Source: a virus. From it: a stretch of 64,000 nucleotides of DNA. The notes beneath the pieces were generated by a model. It did no database searches and was not told where the DNA came from. It saw nothing but the letters and a program-made list of their open reading frames with translations. Position numbers and translations under genes: made by a program. Location: positions 26,917 through 90,916 of the IMG/VR virus record IMGVR_UViG_3300043788_000101, one strand, 5' to 3'. This document shows, one piece after another, positions 26,843 to 49,541 of this stretch; position 1 is the first letter of the stretch; each line of letters starts with the position of its first letter.

Positions 26843-27079
26843 CTAGTCGTCCGCGCGCATCACTTCGCCACATCCAGGCGCGCAAGGTTCGCCTGCTCCC
26901 GCGCCACACAAGACGCACGTCGGTTTGCACCGTCCGCCATGGCCAGCGGGCAGCCGGCAGTGCCGTACGTTGCGCTCGTAACAGGGAATGTCACTCACCA
27001 TGCGCGGCTTACACCGCTCACATCGACAGATGCAGGCGCGCGTCTGGCAATGAATCCCGTTTAGACAGTGCCCCGTCAT
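26843..27079 (-). CDS. cysteine-rich protein
   Basis: 78 aa from ATG 27079 (GGGAG upstream). Twelve or so cysteines in CxC and CxxC spacing with histidines (CRLPAGHGGRC, CVLCGAG). Probably binds several zinc ions. Its last codons (EVMRADD) are themselves the repeated junction element, here read as coding sequence. Confidence 0.55.
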   Translation of the reverse strand: MTGHCLNGIHCQTRACICRCERCKPRMVSDIPCYERNVRHCRLPAGHGGRCKPTCVLCGAGAGEPCAPGCGEVMRADD

Positions 27080-41550: not shown

Positions 41551-42279
41551 ATGAGACTCAATCACGTCATCGCGATCGAAAAGGGCGTCAAGAATCAGAG
41601 CAACGTCGAGATCACTGCGGCCTACCACGAGCTGCAGAAGGTCGCGCTGTTCAGCGGCATCGCGCGCACGTACGAACCGAAGGACGAGGACGGAGACAAG
41701 TTCCCGCCCGAGCATCAGAAGGTCCAGCGGCTCGCCAACGATCTGCTCGCGTTCACCGCGACGTCGATGAGCAAGTACTGGGACATCACGCTCACGAAGG
41801 ACCGGGCCAACTGCGACGCGCGCGCCAACGTCACCGTCGACGGCAAGGTCATCCTGAAAGATGCGCCGGTCACGTTTCTCATCTTCCTCGAGAAGCAGCT
41901 CGGGGACCTCTCGACGATGGTCAAGAAACTGCCGACGCTCGACGCGGGCGAGACCTGGAAGCACGACGCGTCGACGAACGCCTACGCGACCGAGTCGAGC
42001 GAGACCATCAAGACCAAGAAGGTGCCCAAGGCCTTCGTCAAGGCGCAGGCGACCAAGGAGCACCCGGCGCAGGTCGAGACGTTCACCGAGGACATCGTCA
42101 TCGGCAAGTGGCGCACGGTCAAGTACAGCGGAGCCATCCCTGCGCAGCGCATCGCGGAGATCCTCGAGCGCATCACCAAGCTCCAGGCGGCCGTCAAGTT
42201 CGCCCGCGAGGACGCCAACTCGATCGACGTCCAAGACCTTCACATCGGAAAGACGGTCTTCGACCACCTCTTCGAGTGA
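41551..42279 (+). CDS. conserved hypothetical protein upstream of RNA region
   Basis: 242 aa, ATG with TAGGAGGG. Starts 'MRLNHVIAIEKGVKNQSNVE', contains 'HQKVQRLANDLLAFTATSMS', strands 'VTVDGKVILKDAPVTFLIFL' and an internal disordered loop. Similar proteins occur widely in phages and actinobacteria (recollection) without known function. Its position directly before the split tRNAs and rtcB makes a link to RNA metabolism possible, but nothing in the sequence shows it. Confidence 0.65.
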   Translation: MRLNHVIAIEKGVKNQSNVEITAAYHELQKVALFSGIARTYEPKDEDGDKFPPEHQKVQRLANDLLAFTATSMSKYWDITLTKDRANCDARANVTVDGKVILKDAPVTFLIFLEKQLGDLSTMVKKLPTLDAGETWKHDASTNAYATESSETIKTKKVPKAFVKAQATKEHPAQVETFTEDIVIGKWRTVKYSGAIPAQRIAEILERITKLQAAVKFAREDANSIDVQDLHIGKTVFDHLFE

Positions 42280-42322
42280 CAAGATTTGCAGCGCAAGCTC
42301 AAGCTGACACGCAAGTTCAGGG

Positions 42323-42426
42323 TTTCTAAGCTGGAGGTTTCAGGTTCGAGTCCTGACCGGCGATCCGAGAGGTCGACACGACGTCGCTCCCCCGGGTCGC
42401 CGGAAGCTCAAAGGACGAGCGCCAGT
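42323..42426 (+). tRNA. candidate circularly permuted tRNA A
   Basis: The 3' half comes first: GCTGG anticodon-stem strand (42330-42334), variable AGGTT, T-arm TCAGG-TTCGAGT-CCTGA (42340-42356), acceptor CCGGCGA (42357-42363), discriminator T. After a 32-nt spacer comes the 5' half: acceptor TCGCCGG (42397-42403), AA, D-arm GCTC-AAAGGAC-GAGC, and anticodon strand CCAGT (42422-42426). The acceptor match is 7/7. The anticodon loop would be joined across the halves and is uncertain (UCU if the loop is TTTCTAA, CUA if the stem is one pair shorter). Confidence 0.6.
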
Positions 42427-42505
42427 AAGCGCCCAGTGACTCTCAAGCTCTCTGCTGCCAAGCTCAAAAGAATCGCAGGAAGCGCAATCGATCGGTGTGG
42501 AGCAG

Positions 42506-42603
42506 TTTTTGGTATGCGCCGGTGCAATTCCGGCAGAGCCAGCGGAGCGGGCGAACACGTCGCCTTCTGCGCTGGCTCTTAGCTCAGTTAGCAGAGCAGC
42601 CAT
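42506..42603 (+). tRNA. candidate circularly permuted tRNA B
   Basis: 3' half first: TGGT anticodon-stem strand (42510-42513), variable ATGC, T-arm GCCGG-TGCAATT-CCGGC (42518-42534), acceptor AGAGCCA (42535-42541), discriminator G. After a 30-nt spacer: 5' acceptor TGGCTCT (42573-42579), TA, a fully canonical D-arm GCTC-AGTTAGCA-GAGC, then GCCA(T). Acceptor match is 7/7, anticodon stem 4 bp with one G-U. The D-arm looks like tRNA-Ile2/Met-type genes. Anticodon cannot be fixed without knowing the splice point. Confidence 0.6.
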
Positions 42604-42673
42604 CGTAACGATTGACTCCGCGTCTCAAGTGGCGTGCGCCTCTGGCAAAAGCGAGAAAACAGCTACCGATGGG

Positions 42674-42708
42674 GCGGGCCAGGCTAGTGCCCGCCTCGTC
42701 CCTTTTTG
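42674..42708 (+). terminator. terminator/attenuator hairpin before rtcB
   Basis: Stem GGCGGGC / GCCCGCC around a CAGGCTAGT loop, followed by TCGTCCCTTTTTG, which also leads into the rtcB ribosome site (GTAGGAGG). It would end the permuted-tRNA transcript or attenuate rtcB. Confidence 0.6.
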
Positions 42709-42723
42709 TAGGAGGCACTTCTC

Positions 42724-43911
42724 ATGGCAGCTGCCATCAAAGAGTGGACGAACGGCGTTCTGGTCGAGGCGTCGGCGCGCAAGCAGCTCGAAGAGACGGC
42801 GAGCCTCCACATCGTCTGGCCGCACCTCGCGGTCATGCCGGACGTTCACTGGGGGATGGGCTCGACTGTCGGCTCCGTCGTGCCGACGCGAGGCGCCATC
42901 ATCCCGGCCTGCGTGGGCGTCGACCTCGGGTGCGGCATGTCGGCCGTGCGGACGTCGCTCTCGTCGTCGGCTCTGCAGGATAACGGCCAGGCCATTCAAG
43001 ACGCGATCGAACGCGCGGTCCCGCACGGGCGCACCGATGACGGCGGGCCCAACGACCGCGGGGCCTGGCGCAACGTGCCGGACGACGTCGCGGCAACGTG
43101 GGCCGGCCTCTTCGAGACGTTCGCGACCCTGCCGCAGGCGTCGCAGAAGCTCGACACCAAGCGGCAGGCCCAGCAGCTCGGGACGCTCGGGACCGGCAAT
43201 CACTTCGTCGAGGTCTGCCTCGATGAGGCCGATCGCGTGTGGGTGATGCTTCACTCGGGCTCGCGCGGGATCGGTAACCGCATCGGCTCGACGTACATCG
43301 CGGCAGCGAAGCGTCGCTGCGAGCGCGACGGCGTGCAGCTCCCGAACAGCGATCTCGCGTGGCTGCCGGAGGGCACCCCGGAGTTTTCCGAGTACGTCGA
43401 GGCGGTCGGCTGGGCGCAGAACTACGCTCGGCTCAATCGGGAGCTGATGCAGATCCACGTCCTCTCCGCGCTCCGCTCGATGTTCCCAGACATGGGCGAC
43501 AGCTGGGCGGTCGTGTCGTGCCATCACAACTACGTCGCGCGCGAGCGGCACTTCGACGAGGACCTCTGGATCACGCGCAAGGGCGCGGTCTCCGCGAAGC
43601 TCGGGCAGCTGGGAATCATCCCGGGCGCGATGGGCAGGCGGAGCTACATCGTGCGCGGCAAGGGCAACCCGGAGAGCTTCGAGACGTGCAGCCACGGGGC
43701 TGGGCGCGTCATGAGCCGAGGAGCCGCCAAGAAGGCGATCACGCTGGAGCAGCACGCCGAGGACACGGCCGGCGTCTTCTGCCGCAAGGACGCCGACGTG
43801 CTCGACGAGAGCCCGCGGGCGTATAAATCGATCGACGCGGTCATGGCGGCGCAAACGGATCTTGTCGAGGTCGTGCATGTCTTGCGGGCCGTCGTGTGTG
43901 TAAAAGGCTAA
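42724..43911 (+). CDS. rtcB: RtcB family RNA ligase
   Basis: 395 aa, ATG with GTAGGAGG. Characteristic RtcB motifs: 'GVDLGCGMSAVRTS' (metal Asp/Cys), GTGNHF, 'MLHSGSRGIGNRIG', 'SWAVVSCHHNYVARE' (metal His), 'RSYIVRGKGNPESF' and CSHGAGR with the guanylylated His. RtcB joins 2',3'-cyclic phosphate (or 3'-phosphate) to 5'-OH RNA ends with GTP and Mn. Archease is not seen in the window. Flanked by split tRNAs upstream and a 36-gene tRNA array downstream, so tRNA joining or repair is the likely job. Long reverse-strand frame over it is a shadow. Confidence 0.95.
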   Translation: MAAAIKEWTNGVLVEASARKQLEETASLHIVWPHLAVMPDVHWGMGSTVGSVVPTRGAIIPACVGVDLGCGMSAVRTSLSSSALQDNGQAIQDAIERAVPHGRTDDGGPNDRGAWRNVPDDVAATWAGLFETFATLPQASQKLDTKRQAQQLGTLGTGNHFVEVCLDEADRVWVMLHSGSRGIGNRIGSTYIAAAKRRCERDGVQLPNSDLAWLPEGTPEFSEYVEAVGWAQNYARLNRELMQIHVLSALRSMFPDMGDSWAVVSCHHNYVARERHFDEDLWITRKGAVSAKLGQLGIIPGAMGRRSYIVRGKGNPESFETCSHGAGRVMSRGAAKKAITLEQHAEDTAGVFCRKDADVLDESPRAYKSIDAVMAAQTDLVEVVHVLRAVVCVKG

Positions 43912-44896: not shown

Positions 44897-44968
44897 GCGA
44901 TGCTGATGTATCGGTTCGCATAGCAGATTCTTACTCTGTCCGGCTCGGTTCGATTCCGAGGCATCGCA
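44897..44968 (+). tRNA. tRNA-Lys(CTT)
   Basis: Acceptor GCGATGC/GCATCGC perfect, D-arm ATG-TATCGGTTCG-CAT, anticodon CTT at 44930-44932, T-arm CTCGG-TTCGATT-CCGAG. No encoded CCA. Confidence 0.9.
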
Positions 44969-44973
44969 CTCAC

Positions 44974-45045
44974 TGGGGTCCGTCTTGGAGACCGACAACG
45001 CTCTGAACGTTGCGCGCGAGAGTCCGATTCTCTCGACCCCATCCA
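44974..45045 (+). tRNA. tRNA-Gln(CTG), compact D-arm
   Basis: Acceptor TGGGGTC/GACCCCA, D-arm GTCT-TGG-AGAC with a 3-nt loop, anticodon CTG at 45003-45005 on CAACG/CGTTG, T-arm GAGAG-TCCGATT-CTCTC, discriminator T, CCA encoded. Confidence 0.85.
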
Positions 45046-45157
45046 CGACGCACAAGGCGTCGACGTTCTTTGAAAACCTGACGACCCCTCGACGCGCACT
45101 TCGGTGCGGCGGTCCCGGTCGACGACACGACGCGCGAGTGAAGTAGCTCGCGCACTT

Positions 45158-45230
45158 TGCAGGGAAGGCCAAGTGGTGAGCCGAATAGCTGTTAACTATT
45201 TGCGAGCGGGTTCGAGCCCCGCCCCTGCAG
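45158..45230 (+). tRNA. tRNA-Asn(GTT)
   Basis: Acceptor TGCAGGG/CCCTGCA, normal D-arm with GG, anticodon GTT at 45191-45193, T-arm GCGGG-TTCGAGC-CCCGC. Preceded by a perfect 7-bp hairpin GCGCGAG/CTCGCGC and a TTCG-loop hairpin in the 112-nt gap after tRNA-Gln. Confidence 0.92.
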
Positions 45231-45235
45231 CGAAC

Positions 45236-45307
45236 GCCCAGAGGTTCCAGCGAACAGCACCGTTTCGTATTCGGTGCAGCTCGAGGCAGCATCGAGTCTG
45301 GGCTCCA
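45236..45307 (+). tRNA. tRNA-Thr(CGT), compact D-arm, atypical T-loop
   Basis: Acceptor GCCCAGA/TCTGGGC, D-arm GTTC-CAGC-GAAC (4-nt loop), anticodon CGT at 45266-45268 with T-T at the loop base, T-arm CTCGA-GGCAGCA-TCGAG lacking the TTC motif, CCA encoded. Confidence 0.75.
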
Positions 45308-45308
45308 C

Positions 45309-45385
45309 GTCGCATTCGTCTAGCAGGCCCAGGACGCCAGATTCTCAATCCGGCAACACGAGTTCAACTCTCGTATGCGACGCCA
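45309..45385 (+). tRNA. tRNA-Glu(CTC)
   Basis: Acceptor GTCGCAT/ATGCGAC, Glu-like D-arm (TCGTCTAGCAGGC), anticodon CTC at 45344-45346 with one A-C pair in the stem, T-loop TTCAACT, CCA encoded. Confidence 0.92.
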
Positions 45386-45386
45386 G

Positions 45387-45458
45387 GCCTCGTTCGTCTA
45401 CCAGCTAGGATGCTGCGTTTTCACCGCGGCGAAGCGGGCGCGACACCCGCACGAGGCA
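45387..45458 (+). tRNA. tRNA-Glu(TTC)
   Basis: Acceptor GCCTCGT/ACGAGGC, Glu-like D-arm (TCGTCTACC), anticodon TTC at 45420-45422, T-arm GCGGG-CGCGACA-CCCGC with an atypical loop. The convergent HNH frame runs 38 bases into this gene. Confidence 0.85.
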
Positions 45459-46170
45459 CCTTCGGCTGACGCTTCCTTGGGGCATGTCCGAGCCGCGAGA
45501 GCAGATACTTCTTCACGGCGTTGTCTGACATACCAAGTCTTTTGGCGACCGCTCGGTAGCTCGTCATCGAGACTTCGATGGCCAACACGTCCGCTGGCGG
45601 CCAGACGATCTTCTGGTGGCGTCCTCCGTCACACTTGGCGCATCTAGTGGATGAGCGAAAGATGGGATTTCCGCAGTCCACACATCTATTCTTCGGCCTA
45701 GAGTAACGACCCTTCAAAGCGTTTCCCGCAAAGTTTTTCGTCTGCGAGTGACAGTTCGGGCATAGAATTCGGAGATTCAAAAGACGATTGTCTGTCGGGC
45801 ACCCGTTGACATGATCCATCTGCAGGGTCAGCGGCTCGTCATTCCACACCGGGCCGAGACCGCACATCACACAGCGTTCCTCAAGCAGTCCCTCTCGGAT
45901 AAGGCGACGACGTAAAGTAGGACCGCCAGTGCCAGACGCGTTCTCTACGAGAAGCGATGAAGTCGGGCGCTTCTTTGGGTCAACGGATCGACCATGCGCC
46001 TTCCCAACGAAGTGGAGCGTACTCAAGTGCAGACGTCGTATATGACAACTGATGTTTGCGTAGTTTCCTGGGCTGACTGACAGCCCGAGCGAACGAAGCA
46101 CGTCCGACTTCGTTACGCAGGCCGCCACGGCGTGGCGTAACTGGTCGTCAGACCATCGTCTCTTAGACAT
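45421..46170 (-). CDS. HNH endonuclease with C-terminal HTH, inside tRNA array
   Basis: 249 aa from ATG 46170, no clear ribosome site. N-terminal 'WSDDQLRHAVAACVTKSDVL' domain, HNH core (CVMCGLGPVW, 'LTLQMDHVNGCPTDNRLLNL', CPNCHSQTKNF), zinc pair CVDCGN/CAKCDG, and a C-terminal HTH (SYRAVAKRLGMSDNAVKKYL). Family well known in phages. The frame continues antisense into tRNA-Glu(TTC), so the last 13 residues derive from the tRNA sequence. Lower GC than surroundings; likely mobile. Confidence 0.88.
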   Translation of the reverse strand: MSKRRWSDDQLRHAVAACVTKSDVLRSLGLSVSPGNYANISCHIRRLHLSTLHFVGKAHGRSVDPKKRPTSSLLVENASGTGGPTLRRRLIREGLLEERCVMCGLGPVWNDEPLTLQMDHVNGCPTDNRLLNLRILCPNCHSQTKNFAGNALKGRYSRPKNRCVDCGNPIFRSSTRCAKCDGGRHQKIVWPPADVLAIEVSMTSYRAVAKRLGMSDNAVKKYLLSRLGHAPRKRQPKVPRAGVAPASPR

Positions 46171-46208
46171 TGACTAAATGTACCGCACTGACGTAATGCG
46201 TGTCAATC

Positions 46209-46281
46209 GGCTTGCGAGCGAGTGGGGTCATCGCGGCCCACTGAAAATGGGCAGAATTCCGTTCAACTCGGAAGCAAGCCA
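46209..46281 (+). tRNA. tRNA-Phe(GAA)
   Basis: Acceptor GGCTTGC/GCAAGCC, D-arm GCGA-GTGGGGTCA-TCGC, anticodon GAA at 46243-46245, T-arm TTCCG-TTCAACT-CGGAA. First of 22 tRNAs packed almost without spacers. Confidence 0.92.
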
Positions 46282-46282
46282 C

Positions 46283-46358
46283 CGGAGCCTAGCCTAGCAG
46301 TCCAGGCACTTGTTTCGGGAACAAGACCAGGCGGGTGCGACTCCCGCGGCTCCGACCA
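46283..46358 (+). tRNA. tRNA-Pro(CGG)
   Basis: Acceptor CGGAGCC/GGCTCCG, D-arm GCCT-AGCAGTCC-AGGC, anticodon CGG at 46316-46318, T-loop TGCGACT, CCA encoded; its terminal CA is shared with the next gene. Confidence 0.9.
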
Positions 46359-46427
46359 GCGTGTAGCAAAGTGGCCATGCACTCGCTTTGGGAGCGAGAG
46401 ACGTCCGTCCGAATCGGACCACGCTGA
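46357..46427 (+). tRNA. tRNA-Pro(TGG)
   Basis: Acceptor CAGCGTG/CACGCTG, starting within the CCA of the preceding tRNA. D-arm GCA-AAGTGGCCA-TGC, anticodon TGG at 46389-46391, T-arm GTCCG-TCCGAAT-CGGAC. Confidence 0.88.
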
Positions 46428-46433
46428 CTGTAT

Positions 46434-46506
46434 GGTGTTCGTGTTGTAGTGGTCTGCATGGCTGGATGTGACCCAGCCGGTACGGGTCCGATCCCCGTCG
46501 AACACC
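46434..46506 (+). tRNA. tRNA-His(GTG)
   Basis: G-1 at 46434 opposite C73, acceptor GTGTTCG/CGAACAC, anticodon GTG at 46468-46470 on GCTGG/CCAGC, T-arm ACGGG-TCCGATC-CCCGT. The G-1:C73 pair fits His identity. Confidence 0.9.
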
Positions 46507-46510
46507 CTAT

Positions 46511-46582
46511 CTGCTCGTCCTGCCGGACGCAGGCGACTCGCTCCTATCGAGTTCGTGCTGGGTCCGACTCCCAGCGAGCAGA
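46511..46582 (+). tRNA. tRNA-Arg(CCT)
   Basis: Acceptor CTGCTCG/CGAGCAG, D-arm CCTG-CCGGACG-CAGG, anticodon CCT at 46543-46545, T-arm CTGGG-TCCGACT-CCCAG. Confidence 0.9.
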
Positions 46583-46592
46583 CAAAACGTTT

Positions 46593-46665
46593 GCCGTCAT
46601 TGTGCCACTGGCTGTGGCAGGCCGGTTGTCTCCCGGTTGAGCCGGATCGAAACCGGATGGCGGCG
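46593..46665 (+). tRNA. tRNA-Asp(GTC)
   Basis: Acceptor GCCGTCA/TGGCGGC with one G-U, D-arm TGCCA-CTGGCTG-TGGCA, anticodon GTC at 46628-46630, T-loop ATCGAAA with one mismatch in the T-stem, short variable loop. Slightly degenerate. Confidence 0.75.
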
Positions 46666-46671
46666 CCGCGT

Positions 46672-46743
46672 GCGCCTCAGGTCATGGTGACCAATTTGGC
46701 TCCAAACCAATAGGCGTCGGTTCGACTCCGACGGGGCGTGCCA
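46672..46743 (+). tRNA. tRNA-Trp(CCA), compact D-arm
   Basis: Acceptor GCGCCTC/GGGGCGT with G-U pairs, D-arm GGTCA-TGG-TGACC (3-nt loop), anticodon CCA at 46702-46704 in loop CTCCAAA, T-arm GTCGG-TTCGACT-CCGAC, CCA end encoded. Confidence 0.85.
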
Positions 46744-46744
46744 C

Positions 46745-46815
46745 GGGCTGTTCGTCCAACGCGAAGACGCTGCTCTTGCAAAGCAGAGATGAGGGTTGAA
46801 CTCCCTCACGGTCCA
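46745..46815 (+). tRNA. tRNA-Ala(TGC)
   Basis: Acceptor GGGCTGT/ACGGTCC with two G-U pairs (no G3:U70 check beyond sequence), D-arm GTC-CAACGCGAA-GAC without GG, anticodon TGC at 46777-46779, T-arm GAGGG-TTGAACT-CCCTC. Confidence 0.85.
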
Positions 46816-46819
46816 CAAT

Positions 46820-46889
46820 GCCGTTCACGCCGTGGAGGCGAGCAGCCGTTGGTATCGGTTGCGATGGGTTTCGATCACCCAGAGCGGCT
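46820..46889 (+). tRNA. tRNA-Thr(GGT), compact D-arm
   Basis: Acceptor GCCGTTC/GAGCGGC, D-arm CGCC-GTGGA-GGCG (5-nt loop), anticodon GGT at 46851-46853, T-arm TGGGT-TTCGATC-ACCCA. Confidence 0.85.
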
Positions 46890-46891
46890 CC

Positions 46892-46959
46892 GCCGATTCG
46901 TCCAAGGGACAGCGGGAGCTTGTATCTCCCTCGGGCCAGGGCAGTACTGGCAGTCGGCT
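46892..46959 (+). tRNA. tRNA-Thr(TGT), compact D-arm, atypical T-loop
   Basis: 68 nt. Acceptor GCCGATT/AGTCGGC, D-arm GTCC-AAG-GGAC (3-nt loop without GG), anticodon TGT at 46921-46923 on GGGAG/CTCCC, T-arm GCCAG-GGCAGTA-CTGGC. Same odd T-loop as Thr(CGT) and Gly(TCC). Confidence 0.8.
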
Positions 46960-46965
46960 CTAGTT

Positions 46966-47037
46966 GCGGGTGACGCTCAGCAGCGGGTGCGCCTTCCAAG
47001 CGTTACCGACCGTGGGCAGCACACGGCATCCGCTCCA
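46966..47037 (+). tRNA. tRNA-Gly(TCC), compact D-arm, atypical T-loop
   Basis: Acceptor GCGGGTG/CATCCGC, D-arm CGCT-CAGC-AGCG (4-nt loop), anticodon TCC at 46995-46997 with a weak outer stem, T-arm CCGTG-GGCAGCA-CACGG, CCA encoded. Confidence 0.8.
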
Positions 47038-47038
47038 C

Positions 47039-47109
47039 GCGGGGTATTCGGAAAGTGACGAGGCTTGAGTGCCACTCAAGCATTGCCGGAGCATTACCGG
47101 CACCCCGCT
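47039..47109 (+). tRNA. tRNA-Gly(GCC)
   Basis: Acceptor GCGGGGT/ACCCCGC, D-arm TCG-GAAAGTGA-CGA, anticodon GCC at 47071-47073 on CTTGA/TCAAG, T-arm GCCGG-AGCATTA-CCGGC with an atypical loop. Confidence 0.85.
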
Positions 47110-47114
47110 CGAGT

Positions 47115-47186
47115 GAGCCCATGATCAAGCGGTCATCGTGCGCAGCAAACGCACGCGGCTCGGTGCGATTCCGAGTGGGCTCTCCA
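47115..47186 (+). tRNA. tRNA-Cys(GCA), A33
   Basis: Acceptor GAGCCCA/TGGGCTC, anticodon GCA at 47145-47147 in loop CAGCAAA, where position 33 is A instead of the near-universal U, T-arm CTCGG-TGCGATT-CCGAG, CCA encoded. Confidence 0.85.
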
Positions 47187-47187
47187 C

Positions 47188-47259
47188 GCTCTCGTCCTGG
47201 CAGCCAGGCATGCCGCTTCTATCGGCGTTGGCTCCGTGCAACTCGGAGCGAGAGCACCA
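47188..47259 (+). tRNA. tRNA-Arg(TCT), compact D-arm
   Basis: Acceptor GCTCTCG/CGAGAGC, D-arm CCTGG-CAG-CCAGG (3-nt loop), anticodon TCT at 47218-47220, T-arm CTCCG-TGCAACT-CGGAG, CCA encoded. Confidence 0.87.
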
Positions 47260-47260
47260 T

Positions 47261-47330
47261 CTGCCTGTCCGGTGGATCCGGGCCAGTCCCTCCGAAGGAT
47301 CGGTTCGCGGTTCGACTCCGCGCAGGCAGA
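47261..47330 (+). tRNA. tRNA-Arg(CCG), compact D-arm
   Basis: Acceptor CTGCCTG/CAGGCAG, D-arm CCGG-TGGAT-CCGG (5-nt loop), anticodon CCG at 47292-47294, T-arm CGCGG-TTCGACT-CCGCG. Confidence 0.85.
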
Positions 47331-47336
47331 CAACTC

Positions 47337-47406
47337 GGGCTCGCCAGTGGACCTGGCGGAGACGCTACGAACGTTTCTTGCGAAGATTCGATTTCTTCCG
47401 AGCCCA
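47337..47406 (+). tRNA. tRNA-Arg(ACG), compact D-arm
   Basis: Acceptor GGGCTCG/CGAGCCC, D-arm CCAG-TGGAC-CTGG (5-nt loop), anticodon ACG at 47367-47369 (A34 would need deamination by the host TadA), T-arm GAAGA-TTCGATT-TCTTC. Confidence 0.87.
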
Positions 47407-47407
47407 C

Positions 47408-47481
47408 TGCAGCGTGGAGAAGTGGCCTATCTCGCGTGGCTCATAACCACGAGACCTCTGGTTCAAATCCAGACGCTGCTA
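47408..47481 (+). tRNA. tRNA-Met(CAT), first copy
   Basis: Acceptor TGCAGCG/CGCTGCT with a 1-72 T-T mismatch, D-arm GAGA-AGTGGCCTA-TCTC, anticodon CAT at 47442-47444 on CGTGG/CCACG, T-loop TTCAAAT. The 1-72 mismatch recalls initiators, but the three G-C anticodon-stem pairs are absent; could be Met or Ile2. Confidence 0.85.
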
Positions 47482-47482
47482 C

Positions 47483-47550
47483 GCCGGCGCCGCGTGGCGC
47501 GAAGCGGTTTTCATACGACCGCGACGACGGTCCGATTCCGTCCGCCGGCA
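47483..47550 (+). tRNA. tRNA-Met/Ile2(CAT), second copy, compact D-arm
   Basis: 68 nt. Acceptor GCCGGCG/CGCCGGC, D-arm CGCG-TGG-CGCG (3-nt loop), anticodon CAT at 47512-47514 on CGGTT/GACCG, T-arm GACGG-TCCGATT-CCGTC. Met or lysidine-modified Ile2 cannot be told apart by eye. Confidence 0.82.
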
Positions 47551-47554
47551 CGAC

Positions 47555-47627
47555 CTCTCGCGAGTGAGCTAGCGAACACCGCGCTCCTACAAAGCGATGC
47601 CGCAGGGTGCAATCCCCTGGCGAGAGA
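47555..47627 (+). tRNA. tRNA-Val(TAC), C33
   Basis: Acceptor CTCTCGC/GCGAGAG, D-arm GTG ... CAC, anticodon TAC at 47588-47590 in loop CCTACAA with C at position 33, T-arm CAGGG-TGCAATC-CCCTG. Confidence 0.85.
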
Positions 47628-47628
47628 C

Positions 47629-47699
47629 CCGAGCGTGCGTTCGGTCAACGCAGGATCCCTTATAAGAATCCGATTCGGGTCCGACTCCCGACGCTCGGA
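47629..47699 (+). tRNA. tRNA-Ile(TAT), compact D-arm
   Basis: Acceptor CCGAGCG/CGCTCGG, D-arm GCGTT-CGGTC-AACGC (long stem, 5-nt loop), anticodon TAT at 47661-47663 with one stem mismatch, T-arm TCGGG-TCCGACT-CCCGA. Confidence 0.83.
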
Positions 47700-47700
47700 C

Positions 47701-47774
47701 GCGGGACGAGTGAGCCAGTGAACACACCATCTCGACAAGATGGCCAATGCTCGGAGCGACACCGAGGTCCCGCA
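47701..47774 (+). tRNA. tRNA-Val(GAC), C33
   Basis: Acceptor GCGGGAC/GTCCCGC, D-arm nearly identical to Val(TAC), anticodon GAC at 47734-47736 in loop TCGACAA (C33 again), T-arm CTCGG-AGCGACA-CCGAG. Confidence 0.87.
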
Positions 47775-47778
47775 CAAC

Positions 47779-47853
47779 GCGCCATGACGGGTCGGTTACC
47801 ATTTCGATCCTGATAAGATCGGAGACCAGTTTCGACTACTGGATGGCGCACCA
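47779..47853 (+). tRNA. tRNA-Ile(GAT)
   Basis: Acceptor GCGCCAT/ATGGCGC, short D-loop around CGGTT, anticodon GAT at 47812-47814 on CGATC/GATCG, T-arm CCAGT-TTCGACT-ACTGG, CCA encoded. Last gene of the dense plus-strand array. Confidence 0.92.
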
Positions 47854-47872
47854 ACGTGCTAGACGACACCTC

Positions 47873-48199
47873 ATGAAGACGAGGCCGAGCACGACGCCAC
47901 TTGACCCCGGCGTACTCAAAGCCGCAGAGGCATGGGACGCAATCGCACGCATGCACGGCTATAACGAGATGGCCAAAGAAGCGAAGACGTTAGGCCAGAG
48001 AGTCTACTGCCGTATGGCAAGGGATGCCGCGTGCGAGGAGGCGAAGCAGCTCGGCGCGGACATTACGCGCACGGAGGTCGGTGGCGATGCCGTGATGACC
48101 ATCGACGAGGTAGCGCCGCACATCGTCTTCAAAGCGGACGACATCGAGATGATGCGCGAGGCCGTCCGAGTATTTGACCTCGAGCACCCGAAGCCGTAA
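47873..48199 (+). CDS. small hypothetical protein within tRNA region
   Basis: 108 aa from ATG 47873; longer in-frame starts lie inside tRNA genes. Helical N-terminal half ('DAIARMHGYNEMAKEAKTLG') and a strand-helix C-terminus (PHIVFKADDIEMMREAV). Function unknown. Confidence 0.6.
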   Translation: MKTRPSTTPLDPGVLKAAEAWDAIARMHGYNEMAKEAKTLGQRVYCRMARDAACEEAKQLGADITRTEVGGDAVMTIDEVAPHIVFKADDIEMMREAVRVFDLEHPKP

Positions 48200-48212
48200 C
48201 CTTTGCCGCGTC

Positions 48213-48740
48213 ATGGAACCTCGAACGCTCGTGCTCACGCCCCAGATGGCGCCCATCCGCATCGCGACGTGGGAGGAGTCGGTCGTCCTCGTCTGGCAGG
48301 GCAAGGCTGACGCGCTCGAACTCTACGAGGCGACGGTGTCCTCGCCGAGCGTGACGCTGCAGGTCCCAGCGGTGGTGCGGCTGCACAAGTCGGTGCACAT
48401 GCACAAAAATGGAGTAAAGTTCTCGCGCGTGAACGTGCTATCTCGCGATGGCCTCCGTTGCTGCTACTGCGGCGAGCGCAAGAAGGCGCGTGAACTGAAC
48501 TACGACCACGTCATCCCGCGGTCGCGCGGCGGTAAGACGACGTGGACTAATATCGTCACAGCTTGTTTGGCGGACAACCGCCGCAAGGGCAACCGCACGC
48601 CGCAGGAGGCCGGGATGCGGATGCACTTCAAGCCGTACGTTCCGACGACGCTGGTGCGTCAGCAACCGCTACTCTTTCTCATCGGCGATGCGCCGGGGCA
48701 GTGGGGTCCGTACCTCGGCGAGGCGGCTCAGAGCGCGTAA
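48213..48740 (+). CDS. HNH endonuclease family protein
   Basis: 175 aa from ATG 48213. N-terminal domain ('TWEESVVLVWQGKADALELY'), then FSRVNVLSRDGLRCCYCGE, 'LNYDHVIPRSRGGKTTW', NIVTACLADNRRKGNRTP. In related proteins the last motif is CxxCN; here it is CLADN, so the fourth zinc cysteine is missing. Located between tRNA clusters. Confidence 0.83.
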   Translation: MEPRTLVLTPQMAPIRIATWEESVVLVWQGKADALELYEATVSSPSVTLQVPAVVRLHKSVHMHKNGVKFSRVNVLSRDGLRCCYCGERKKARELNYDHVIPRSRGGKTTWTNIVTACLADNRRKGNRTPQEAGMRMHFKPYVPTTLVRQQPLLFLIGDAPGQWGPYLGEAAQSA

Positions 48741-48747
48741 GATTTCT

Positions 48748-48833
48748 GGAGCCTAGTGGGCAATGGCGCCCAACCCGGTTCGAACCCGGGACCACGGTGA
48801 GGAATCGTGACTGTTCGATCCAGTTAGGCTCCG
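48748..48833 (+). tRNA. tRNA-Ser(CGA)
   Basis: Class II. Acceptor GGAGCCT/AGGCTCC, D-arm TGGGC-AATGGC-GCCCA, anticodon CGA at 48781-48783 on CCCGG/CCGGG, variable-arm stem CACG/CGTG, T-loop TTCGATC. Confidence 0.88.
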
Positions 48834-48839
48834 CAACTT

Positions 48840-48922
48840 GGAAGACGAATCGGGCAGGGCCCGAGCCGGTTTGCTAAACCGTGCGGCGCGCAAGCGCTGG
48901 GGATCAGGACCTCCGTCTTCCG
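48840..48922 (+). tRNA. tRNA-Ser(GCT), compact D-arm
   Basis: Class II. Acceptor GGAAGAC/GTCTTCC, D-arm TCGGGC-AGG-GCCCGA (6-bp stem, 3-nt loop), anticodon GCT at 48873-48875, variable-arm GCGC-GCAA-GCGC, T-loop ATCAGGA (atypical). Confidence 0.82.
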
Positions 48923-48937
48923 CTATCGCGCGCGTCG

Positions 48938-49207
48938 TCAGTACCCGAACACGTTGCGCCCTCCAGGCGTGCTGTCGGTTCGGCGATCGAACGTCTCGCG
49001 AGTCTGAGGCAGCGCCGCAAGCTTCGCGTCGACGTCGCGCGCCATCTCGACGACGAGATCCGCGATGTCTCGCATGGCTTGCGCGACCTCGTACGTGAAC
49101 CTCTGGACCTCGGTCCCATCCTGCGTGAAGTACTGGATCCGCTTTGCGATGTCGGCGGCCTTCGCTTCGTATGACAGTCGCACGATGTTCGACGGGTCGA
49201 TCGGCAT
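48938..49207 (-). CDS. small helical hypothetical protein
   Basis: 89 aa, ATG start. Helical ('SYEAKAADIAKRIQYFTQDG', 'RDIADLVVEMARDVDAKLAA') with a C-terminal 'GGRNVFGY'. Lies between plus- and minus-strand tRNAs. Function unknown. Confidence 0.6.
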   Translation of the reverse strand: MPIDPSNIVRLSYEAKAADIAKRIQYFTQDGTEVQRFTYEVAQAMRDIADLVVEMARDVDAKLAALPQTRETFDRRTDSTPGGRNVFGY

Positions 49208-49230
49208 GCGGGCGATTCTAGCATCGACGG

Positions 49231-49306
49231 TCCCACGAGCGAGATTCGAACTCGCACTGTCCTCCTTCTGAGGGAGTCGACTCCTACCAAGTTGGTCTAC
49301 CGTGGG
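49231..49306 (-). tRNA. tRNA-Leu(CAG), short variable loop
   Basis: Acceptor CCCACGG/TCGTGGG, D-arm with a 13-nt loop containing GG, anticodon CAG at 49268-49270 in loop CTCAGAA, T-arm GCGAG-TTCGAAT-CTCGC. Variable loop only about 5 nt although bacterial tRNA-Leu is normally class II. Confidence 0.78.
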
Positions 49307-49309
49307 TCG

Positions 49310-49394
49310 TGCGCACTAGCGGAGTCGAACCGCTACGGACTTTCGTCCCCACGCTTCTCAGGCGCGGCTGTCTTCCGAATTTCAGCAAGTGCGC
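49310..49394 (-). tRNA. tRNA-Leu(GAG)
   Basis: Class II. Acceptor GCGCACT/AGTGCGC, anticodon GAG at 49357-49359 on CGCGC/GCGTG, variable-arm GGAC-GAAA-GTCC, T-arm AGCGG-TTCGACT-CCGCT. Confidence 0.9.
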
Positions 49395-49395
49395 G

Positions 49396-49465
49396 TTCGG
49401 GTTGAAGGTGACGATCCTTCGCGCGCTGGATTCAAAGTCCAGTCGTCCCACCGGGGAGAACCCGA
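49396..49465 (-). tRNA. tRNA-Gln(TTG), compact D-arm
   Basis: Acceptor TCGGGTT/AACCCGA, D-arm TCCC-CGGT-GGGA (4-nt loop), anticodon TTG at 49433-49435 on CTGGA/TCCAG, T-arm GAAGG-ATCGTCA-CCTTC (atypical loop). Confidence 0.85.
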
Positions 49466-49466
49466 G

Positions 49467-49541
49467 TGCCTGACCTGGGATTCGAACCCAGAGACCCCAA
49501 CTTTTGAAGGTGGGAGGTTTACCGATTACCGTCAGCCAGGC
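49467..49541 (-). tRNA. tRNA-Leu(CAA), short variable loop
   Basis: Acceptor GCCTGGC/GTCAGGC, anticodon CAA at 49504-49506 in loop TTCAAAA with one C-T in the stem, T-arm CTGGG-TTCGAAT-CCCAG. Variable loop 5 nt, again unlike normal bacterial Leu. Confidence 0.78.

Follow-up and report, generated by a model that had tools for sequence, protein, structure and literature searches.

What do two tRNA-like elements, whose halves stand in reversed order in a viral genome, belong to? The window analyzed here is a stretch of 64,000 nucleotides from the IMG/VR virus record IMGVR_UViG_3300043788_000101 (positions 26,917 to 90,916 of that record), and the two elements lie between a gene of the DUF7873 family and a gene for the RNA ligase RtcB. 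An earlier reading of the letters alone (hereafter the sequence-only reading) took the elements for two candidate circularly permuted tRNA genes, with RtcB as the ligase that joins their ends. The analysis points to a different answer. Both elements are likely to be parts of one structural RNA, which carries two permuted tRNA-like modules, resembles the Y RNA YrlA in its build, is paired with DUF7873 and acts as a tRNA-mimicking ribonucleoprotein (RNP). The predicted partner of this RNA is the upstream DUF7873 gene, rather than rtcB.

The permuted tRNA-like order is real and chance is excluded. As was first claimed, the 3' half of a tRNA stands before the 5' half that matches it in two places, at 42340-42420 (element A) and at 42518-42597 (element B), both on the plus strand. 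Direct reading of element A gives the T-arm TCAGG-TTCGAGT-CCTGA (42340-42356), the 3' acceptor CCGGCGA (42357-42363), the 5' acceptor TCGCCGG (42397-42403) and the D-arm GCTC-AAAGGAC-GAGC (42406-42420). Element B reads, in the same order, GCCGG-TGCAATT-CCGGC (42518-42534), AGAGCCA (42535-42541), TGGCTCT (42573-42579) and GCTC-AGTTAGCA-GAGC (42582-42597). Both acceptor matches are perfect over 7 bp, and the anticodon-stem strands are complementary as well, with 5/5 pairs in A (CCAGT/GCTGG) and 4/5 pairs in B. The spacers are indeed nearly equal, but their lengths of 33 nt (A) and 31 nt (B) depart from the range of 30-32 nt first given.

A strict descriptor, run over 1.16 Mb, finds both elements; run over a Markov-shuffled version of all this sequence, it gives 1 match. 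With a scored descriptor applied to 1.97 Mb, the shuffled matches are never as high as the 18-19 of the elements. These shuffles, together with the covariation and synteny described below, bear out the view that chance or leftover deletion fragments are unlikely. A linear or intron-bearing tRNA formed from the same bases is ruled out: ARAGORN finds none here, yet it finds 23 tRNA genes elsewhere in the window, and the acceptors pair in the permuted order only.

The stretch downstream of the DUF7873 gene is predicted to be one structured RNA of about 300-400 nt with two modules; in each of them a permuted tRNA-like head (T-arm, loop-closed acceptor and D-arm) tops a long basal stem whose internal loops are conserved. 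In the window, the consensus with 111 two-head relatives and the covariance-model matches place the whole RNA at 42286-42707 on the plus strand; its putative start lies just past the DUF7873 stop codon and its putative end at a terminator-like hairpin. Module A (42298-42456) comprises a 3' half with the anticodon-stem strand GCTGG, the variable loop, the T-arm and the 3' acceptor (42330-42363), an apical insert of 33 nt that lacks CCA and forms one closed hairpin with the acceptor (42364-42396), and a 5' half with the 5' acceptor, the D-arm and the anticodon-stem strand CCAGT (42397-42426). Module B (42477-42640) opens with the 5' side of its basal stem (42486-42502), which contains a conserved AATCGA internal loop (ATCGA in the family consensus) and the CGGTGTGGAG helix, which covaries. 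The T-arm and 3' acceptor follow (42518-42541), with a G at position 55 of the T-loop, then an apical insert of 31 nt, also a closed hairpin without CCA (42542-42572), and the 5' acceptor and D-arm (42573-42597). The 3' side of the basal stem (42616-42629) has the CTCCGCGT strand and a conserved CTCAAG internal loop, CTTAAAC in the family.

Two of these features were missed by the sequence-only reading, namely the long basal stems on both elements and the extension of both acceptor stems past 7 bp into a continuous closed hairpin of about 10 bp; the role of the upstream gene was missing from its account as well. The hairpin of A (42357-42403) folds at -29.6 kcal/mol with a shuffle z of -3.5, and that of B (42535-42579) at -33.3 kcal/mol with a shuffle z of -6.0. 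The RNA is closed by the terminator-like hairpin and a T run (42669-42707), which separate it from rtcB. The hairpin, taken as 42669-42712, folds at -21.9 kcal/mol (shuffle z -2.6) and has a counterpart at the equivalent position of the consensus; a simple terminator scan did not list it. The window thus carries the hallmarks of the family: AATCGA, CTCAAG, a middle segment related to the GCTC motif in the middle of the family RNA, and the terminator-like 3' hairpin.

The membership of the window RNA in this family was assessed with R1, a covariance model built from 40 aligned B modules with the window left out. The top two matches of R1 over the 64 kb are module B (42477-42640, 63.2 bits, E 6e-13) and module A (42298-42456, 32.3 bits, E 1.1e-5), and the next-best match reaches 13.7 bits (E 0.24). 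Among 71 non-redundant RNAs, covariation is strongest in the T, acceptor and D stems of both heads and in basal stem B, and the signal is weaker at the GAGC/GCTC base of A. The halves covary with each other: own halves pair with scores of 9.5 and 10.7, as opposed to 4.3 and 4.4 after a cross-genome swap, and none of 400 shuffles reaches the score of the own halves. The anticodon-stem halves covary in both heads. In module B, 95% of the pairs are formed as opposed to 67.7% when shuffled (0/500 shuffles) and about 40% in slid controls, with two-sided changes at 27 of 28 pairs. The ATCGA and CTTAAAC internal loops of the basal stems are among the most conserved letters.

The tertiary contacts follow the same pattern, in counts that are not phylogenetically independent. 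The 15-48 pair is A-U in 207 cases and G-C in 18. The D-loop GG is kept in 252/260 members with U55 (Ro60-linked heads counted in) and in 1/8 members with G55, to which head B of the window belongs. Since the stems and the contacts 15-48 and 18-55 covary, there is strong comparative evidence that the heads fold as a real tRNA elbow.

A search with a profile of DUF7873 recovered 364 viral and at least 584 bacterial loci. Among relatives of the gene in viral contigs and GenBank phages, the stretch after it is unannotated and holds one or usually two permuted heads in nearly every case. Phages with the two-headed RNA immediately past DUF7873 infect Arthrobacter, Gordonia, Rhodococcus, Pseudanabaena, Vibrio and Klebsiella, and the bacterial carriers include Streptomyces, Kitasatospora, Actinomadura, Dactylosporangium, Chloroflexi, Armatimonadota and Acidobacteria. 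The arrangement proposed as a check, permuted heads in related phages, is therefore found there, but beside DUF7873. When 71 viral DUF7873 loci are scanned, two heads are found in 44 and one head in 23, and the remaining 4 records also carry the RNA. For the best 80 of the at least 584 bacterial loci, the descriptor finds the RNA in 78, and in one further locus both direct reading and the model reveal it, its loop interrupted by an inverted-repeat insert. This insert, of about 120-130 nt and reminiscent of a small mobile element, sits in the apical loop of head B (L282:7007-7125, approximate). In L269 (6815-6845) and similar Streptomyces loci, head A has apparently shrunk to a plain hairpin and head B is retained.

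The coupling of RNA and protein was also followed across one phylum, that of Streptomyces griseoruber, in an even draw of 198 genomes. DUF7873 occurs in 6 of the 198, one of which is the genome that served to choose the phylum, and the RNA occurs in exactly those 6, 240-300 nt downstream. By our arithmetic, sets that match in this way would arise by chance about once in a billion or less, despite the chosen genome.

In the window, the DUF7873 gene encodes 242 amino acids (41551-42279, plus strand; Pfam PF25283, E 2.9e-100), and the two-headed RNA lies directly downstream on the same strand. The AlphaFold2 model of the protein has a mean predicted local distance difference test (pLDDT) score of 92.9, and the fold has no PDB or viral match at E<=0.001. 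The sole notable fold match is the BFVD entry A0A7M1RW91 from the crAss-like phage cr118_1 (probability 0.99, template-modeling scores 0.43/0.56, E 0.05). On this modeled likeness, DUF7873 perhaps has a distant relative in crAss-like phages. In PHROGs and NCBIfam no family was found for DUF7873.

A mechanism can be proposed by analogy. DUF7873 would bind the conserved internal loops of the basal stems, much as Ro60 binds the Y RNA basal stem, and the two heads would pass for tRNA, so that an enzyme that handles tRNA is docked on, gated or blocked. Candidate targets are RNases, enzymes of RNA repair or modification, and defense nucleases that cut tRNA. In a phage with a large set of tRNAs, such an RNP would protect or manage tRNA, and the setting of the window RNA among many phage tRNA genes suits a tRNA-guarding or tRNA-managing role. 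A tether, decoy or gate is favored by analogy with Y RNA, whose protein sits on the basal stem and whose head makes contact with PNPase (PMC8394870). As a first choice, still tentative and a little short of an even chance, the RNP may serve as a decoy for a tRNA nuclease or as a tether for RNA quality control. The broader proposal stands slightly better than even: a new RNP class, found across several bacterial phyla and their phages, whose DUF7873 protein would carry a two-headed RNA. The heads would jointly engage the tRNA machinery, at two tRNA sites or through two tRNA-binding proteins simultaneously, and phages would use the RNP to manage or protect their tRNA supply.

Several points weigh against a tRNA-mimicking RNP built on DUF7873. 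Transcription, the RNA ends and the binding of the RNA by DUF7873 are all inferred. DUF7873 has no recognizable RNA-binding fold, and the neighbors of the bacterial DUF7873 genes are not conserved; they include no recurring operon partner, and the context gives no function. Of the two basal stems, A is the less well defined. In addition, NCCA starts the loop after the 3' acceptor, much like the 3' end of a tRNA, in 40 of 109 A heads and 21 of 94 B heads, as opposed to 55 of 2234 at other loop offsets, which hints at processing in some members.

The NCCA enrichment, along with an apical loop that accepts inserts of up to about 130 nt, is what would be expected if RNase P (with 3' trimming at CCA) cut in the apical loops and left two or three paired pieces, like a two-piece tmRNA. 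The heads would then be processing signals as well as structure. On the other hand, the acceptor of many members is closed by a short loop that has no CCA, such as GCTCGA in head B of Streptomyces, and the loops of the window lack CCA. This lack is not decisive, since only some of the ordinary tRNA genes of the window encode CCA. Such processing is unlikely overall, though it fares best among the alternatives.

The position of the RNA directly past the stop codon in most loci could also mean that it acts in cis, as the 3' untranslated region of the DUF7873 mRNA, through which DUF7873 or a tRNA-binding factor would regulate that mRNA. This is improbable in view of the loci in which gene and RNA are separated. 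The last of the 80 bacterial loci, in a Chloroflexi metagenome-assembled genome, has the RNA on a different contig from its only DUF7873 copy. In two viral records (G059 and G060, the records of L207 and L208) some 8.4 kb separate the RNA from the single DUF7873 gene, and in another (G062, the record of L253) the distance is about 95 kb. Because the RNA and DUF7873 co-occur even when they are far apart or on separate contigs, they are most likely partners in trans.

Genuine circularly permuted tRNA genes, as proposed by the sequence-only reading, would be cut in the anticodon region, circularized by RtcB and released by RNase P and tRNase Z. Their order and the covariation of the acceptor and anticodon stems agree with this, as do G18G19, U54U55C56 and the 15-48 pairs in most members, the NCCA in part of the family and the adjoining rtcB. 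Moreover, half A of the window could yield a UCU-like loop, and A alone is readable as the loop TTTCTAA. However, U33 is conserved in real permuted tRNAs (PMC3978253), and neither half of the window family conserves U33, purine 37 or an anticodon loop; U33 is not enriched in 38 members (A) or 48 members (B), read from either half. The loop that joins the acceptor strands can be as short as 4 nt or far exceed 40 nt, and many relatives have a closing loop of 4-6 nt. No removable intervening sequence is seen between the acceptor strands, which form continuous capped hairpins of 10 bp in the window. The head termini run into the conserved basal stems, where no bulge-helix-bulge (BHB) site is evident, although no dedicated BHB search was made. 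A splicing endonuclease (PF01974) is absent from the virus's own record of 90.9 kb, which may be a fragment. Since no U33 or anticodon loop is conserved and the acceptors are often closed by short loops, the elements are probably not decoding tRNAs, and genuine permuted tRNA genes are a very improbable explanation.

The ligase link fares no better. The next gene is indeed rtcB (42724-43911, plus strand; Pfam RtcB, E 1.7e-122), but rtcB accompanies DUF7873 in 2 of 86 viral loci, at a distance of about 3-4 kb, and in none of the 12 GenBank phage or 80 bacterial loci. Since it stands near DUF7873 in so few loci, its position in the window looks incidental, an immediate neighbor in this phage and not a family trait. 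The closest viral rtcB relative is preceded (L001:1980-2105) by an odd linear tRNA-like stretch with a long interior and a 7-bp acceptor match (GCGGCCG/CGGTCGC), which ARAGORN does not call. On the far side of rtcB, the 23 tRNA genes of the window are arrayed at 44897-49541; part of them encode CCA and part do not. Inside the array, on the minus strand (45421-46170), is a gene that we read as HNH-like, with no Pfam match.

Lastly, the elements might be ordinary YrlA Y RNAs, whose Ro60/Rsr would come from the host or from a missing part of the phage genome. A plain YrlA with Ro60 was the first idea after a permissive Rfam search matched the elements to YrlA (RF02553) at 27.7 bits (A) and 18.4 bits, against a gathering score of 69, and Salmonella has a known YrlA next to rtcB (PMC7790460). 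The threshold is strict, as a viral Ro60-linked YrlA copy also stays under it with 43.1 bits. The Rfam score is discounted, because pairs of adjacent ordinary tRNA genes score equally high, at 20-30 bits (G010, G012, G013, G017, G021). This artefact is composed of the T-arm of one tRNA gene and the D-arm of the next, and is a trap for annotation. No Ro60/TROVE gene was found in the virus's own record or in 178 DUF7873 loci, nor DUF7873 in 75 Ro60 loci, and Ro60-linked YrlA RNAs match chiefly the head of R1 and not its basal stem. The absence of Ro60 and the different basal stem rule out the plain form of this idea, and a Ro60 supplied from elsewhere has very little probability.

The statement of the sequence-only reading that no such system had been described holds in part. 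No description of the family of the window was found, but permuted tRNA-like RNAs by rtcB are known, namely YrlA with Ro60/Rsr (PMC7790460, PMC8394870). The literature search found no paper on DUF7873 and none on permuted tRNAs in phages; subscription papers, preprints and key Y RNA papers lay outside it, and a prior report is possible. No Rfam family matches the RNA as a whole, and Pfam has the protein only as DUF7873. An uncharacterized protein family, with at least several hundred loci and no solved relative, is in this way joined to a structured RNA overlooked by annotation pipelines. It follows that Y-RNA-like tRNA mimicry may not be limited to Ro60, and that permuted tRNA-like order alone does not make a permuted tRNA gene. 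Cultured carriers exist (Streptomyces, and the phages of Arthrobacter and Gordonia), so that the function is directly testable.

Among known RNAs, the permuted two-piece tmRNA shares with the window family a permuted gene and a tRNA-like domain that is divided within its acceptor loop. The window family differs by its full D-arm, its anticodon-stem-like base and its two heads; moreover, neither ARAGORN nor Rfam finds a tmRNA in the window, and the relatives reach at best 21.9 bits with a cut-off of 70. A group I intron, a small ribozyme and other Rfam families were likewise discarded for lack of a match. The permuted tRNA genes of Cyanidioschyzon, green algae and Thermofilum (PMC3978253) have the same order of a 3' half before a 5' half, joined through the acceptor end, whereas the window family has no U33 or anticodon loop, carries stable hairpin caps and is in fixed pairing with one protein family.

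The closest likeness is to Y RNAs. Viral Ro60-YrlA cassettes, such as those of L047 (6288-9167) and L055 (1610-4241), are phage-borne permuted tRNA-like RNAs by a protein gene and rtcB as well. They form a separate system in other phages, in which Ro60 stands between the RNAs and rtcB; the order is YrlA-like RNA(s), Ro60 (TROVE), rtcB, and L047 has three tandem RNA copies with similar flanks. Many viral Ro60 genes (L108-L175) have one or two YrlA-like heads just upstream; those that were scored fall below the Rfam gathering threshold, and current annotation would miss them. YrlA itself (RF02553; rsr-yrlBA-rtcBA in Salmonella) shares with the window family a permuted head borne by a long basal stem, frequently in tandem copies and sometimes near rtcB. 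In contrast to YrlA, the window family is partnered by DUF7873 and not by Ro60, has another basal stem with its own conserved loops, usually bears two heads per RNA, follows its protein gene instead of preceding it, and scores below threshold in Rfam. These comparisons set the window RNA apart, as a predicted family separate from both YrlA and permuted tRNA genes and linked to DUF7873.
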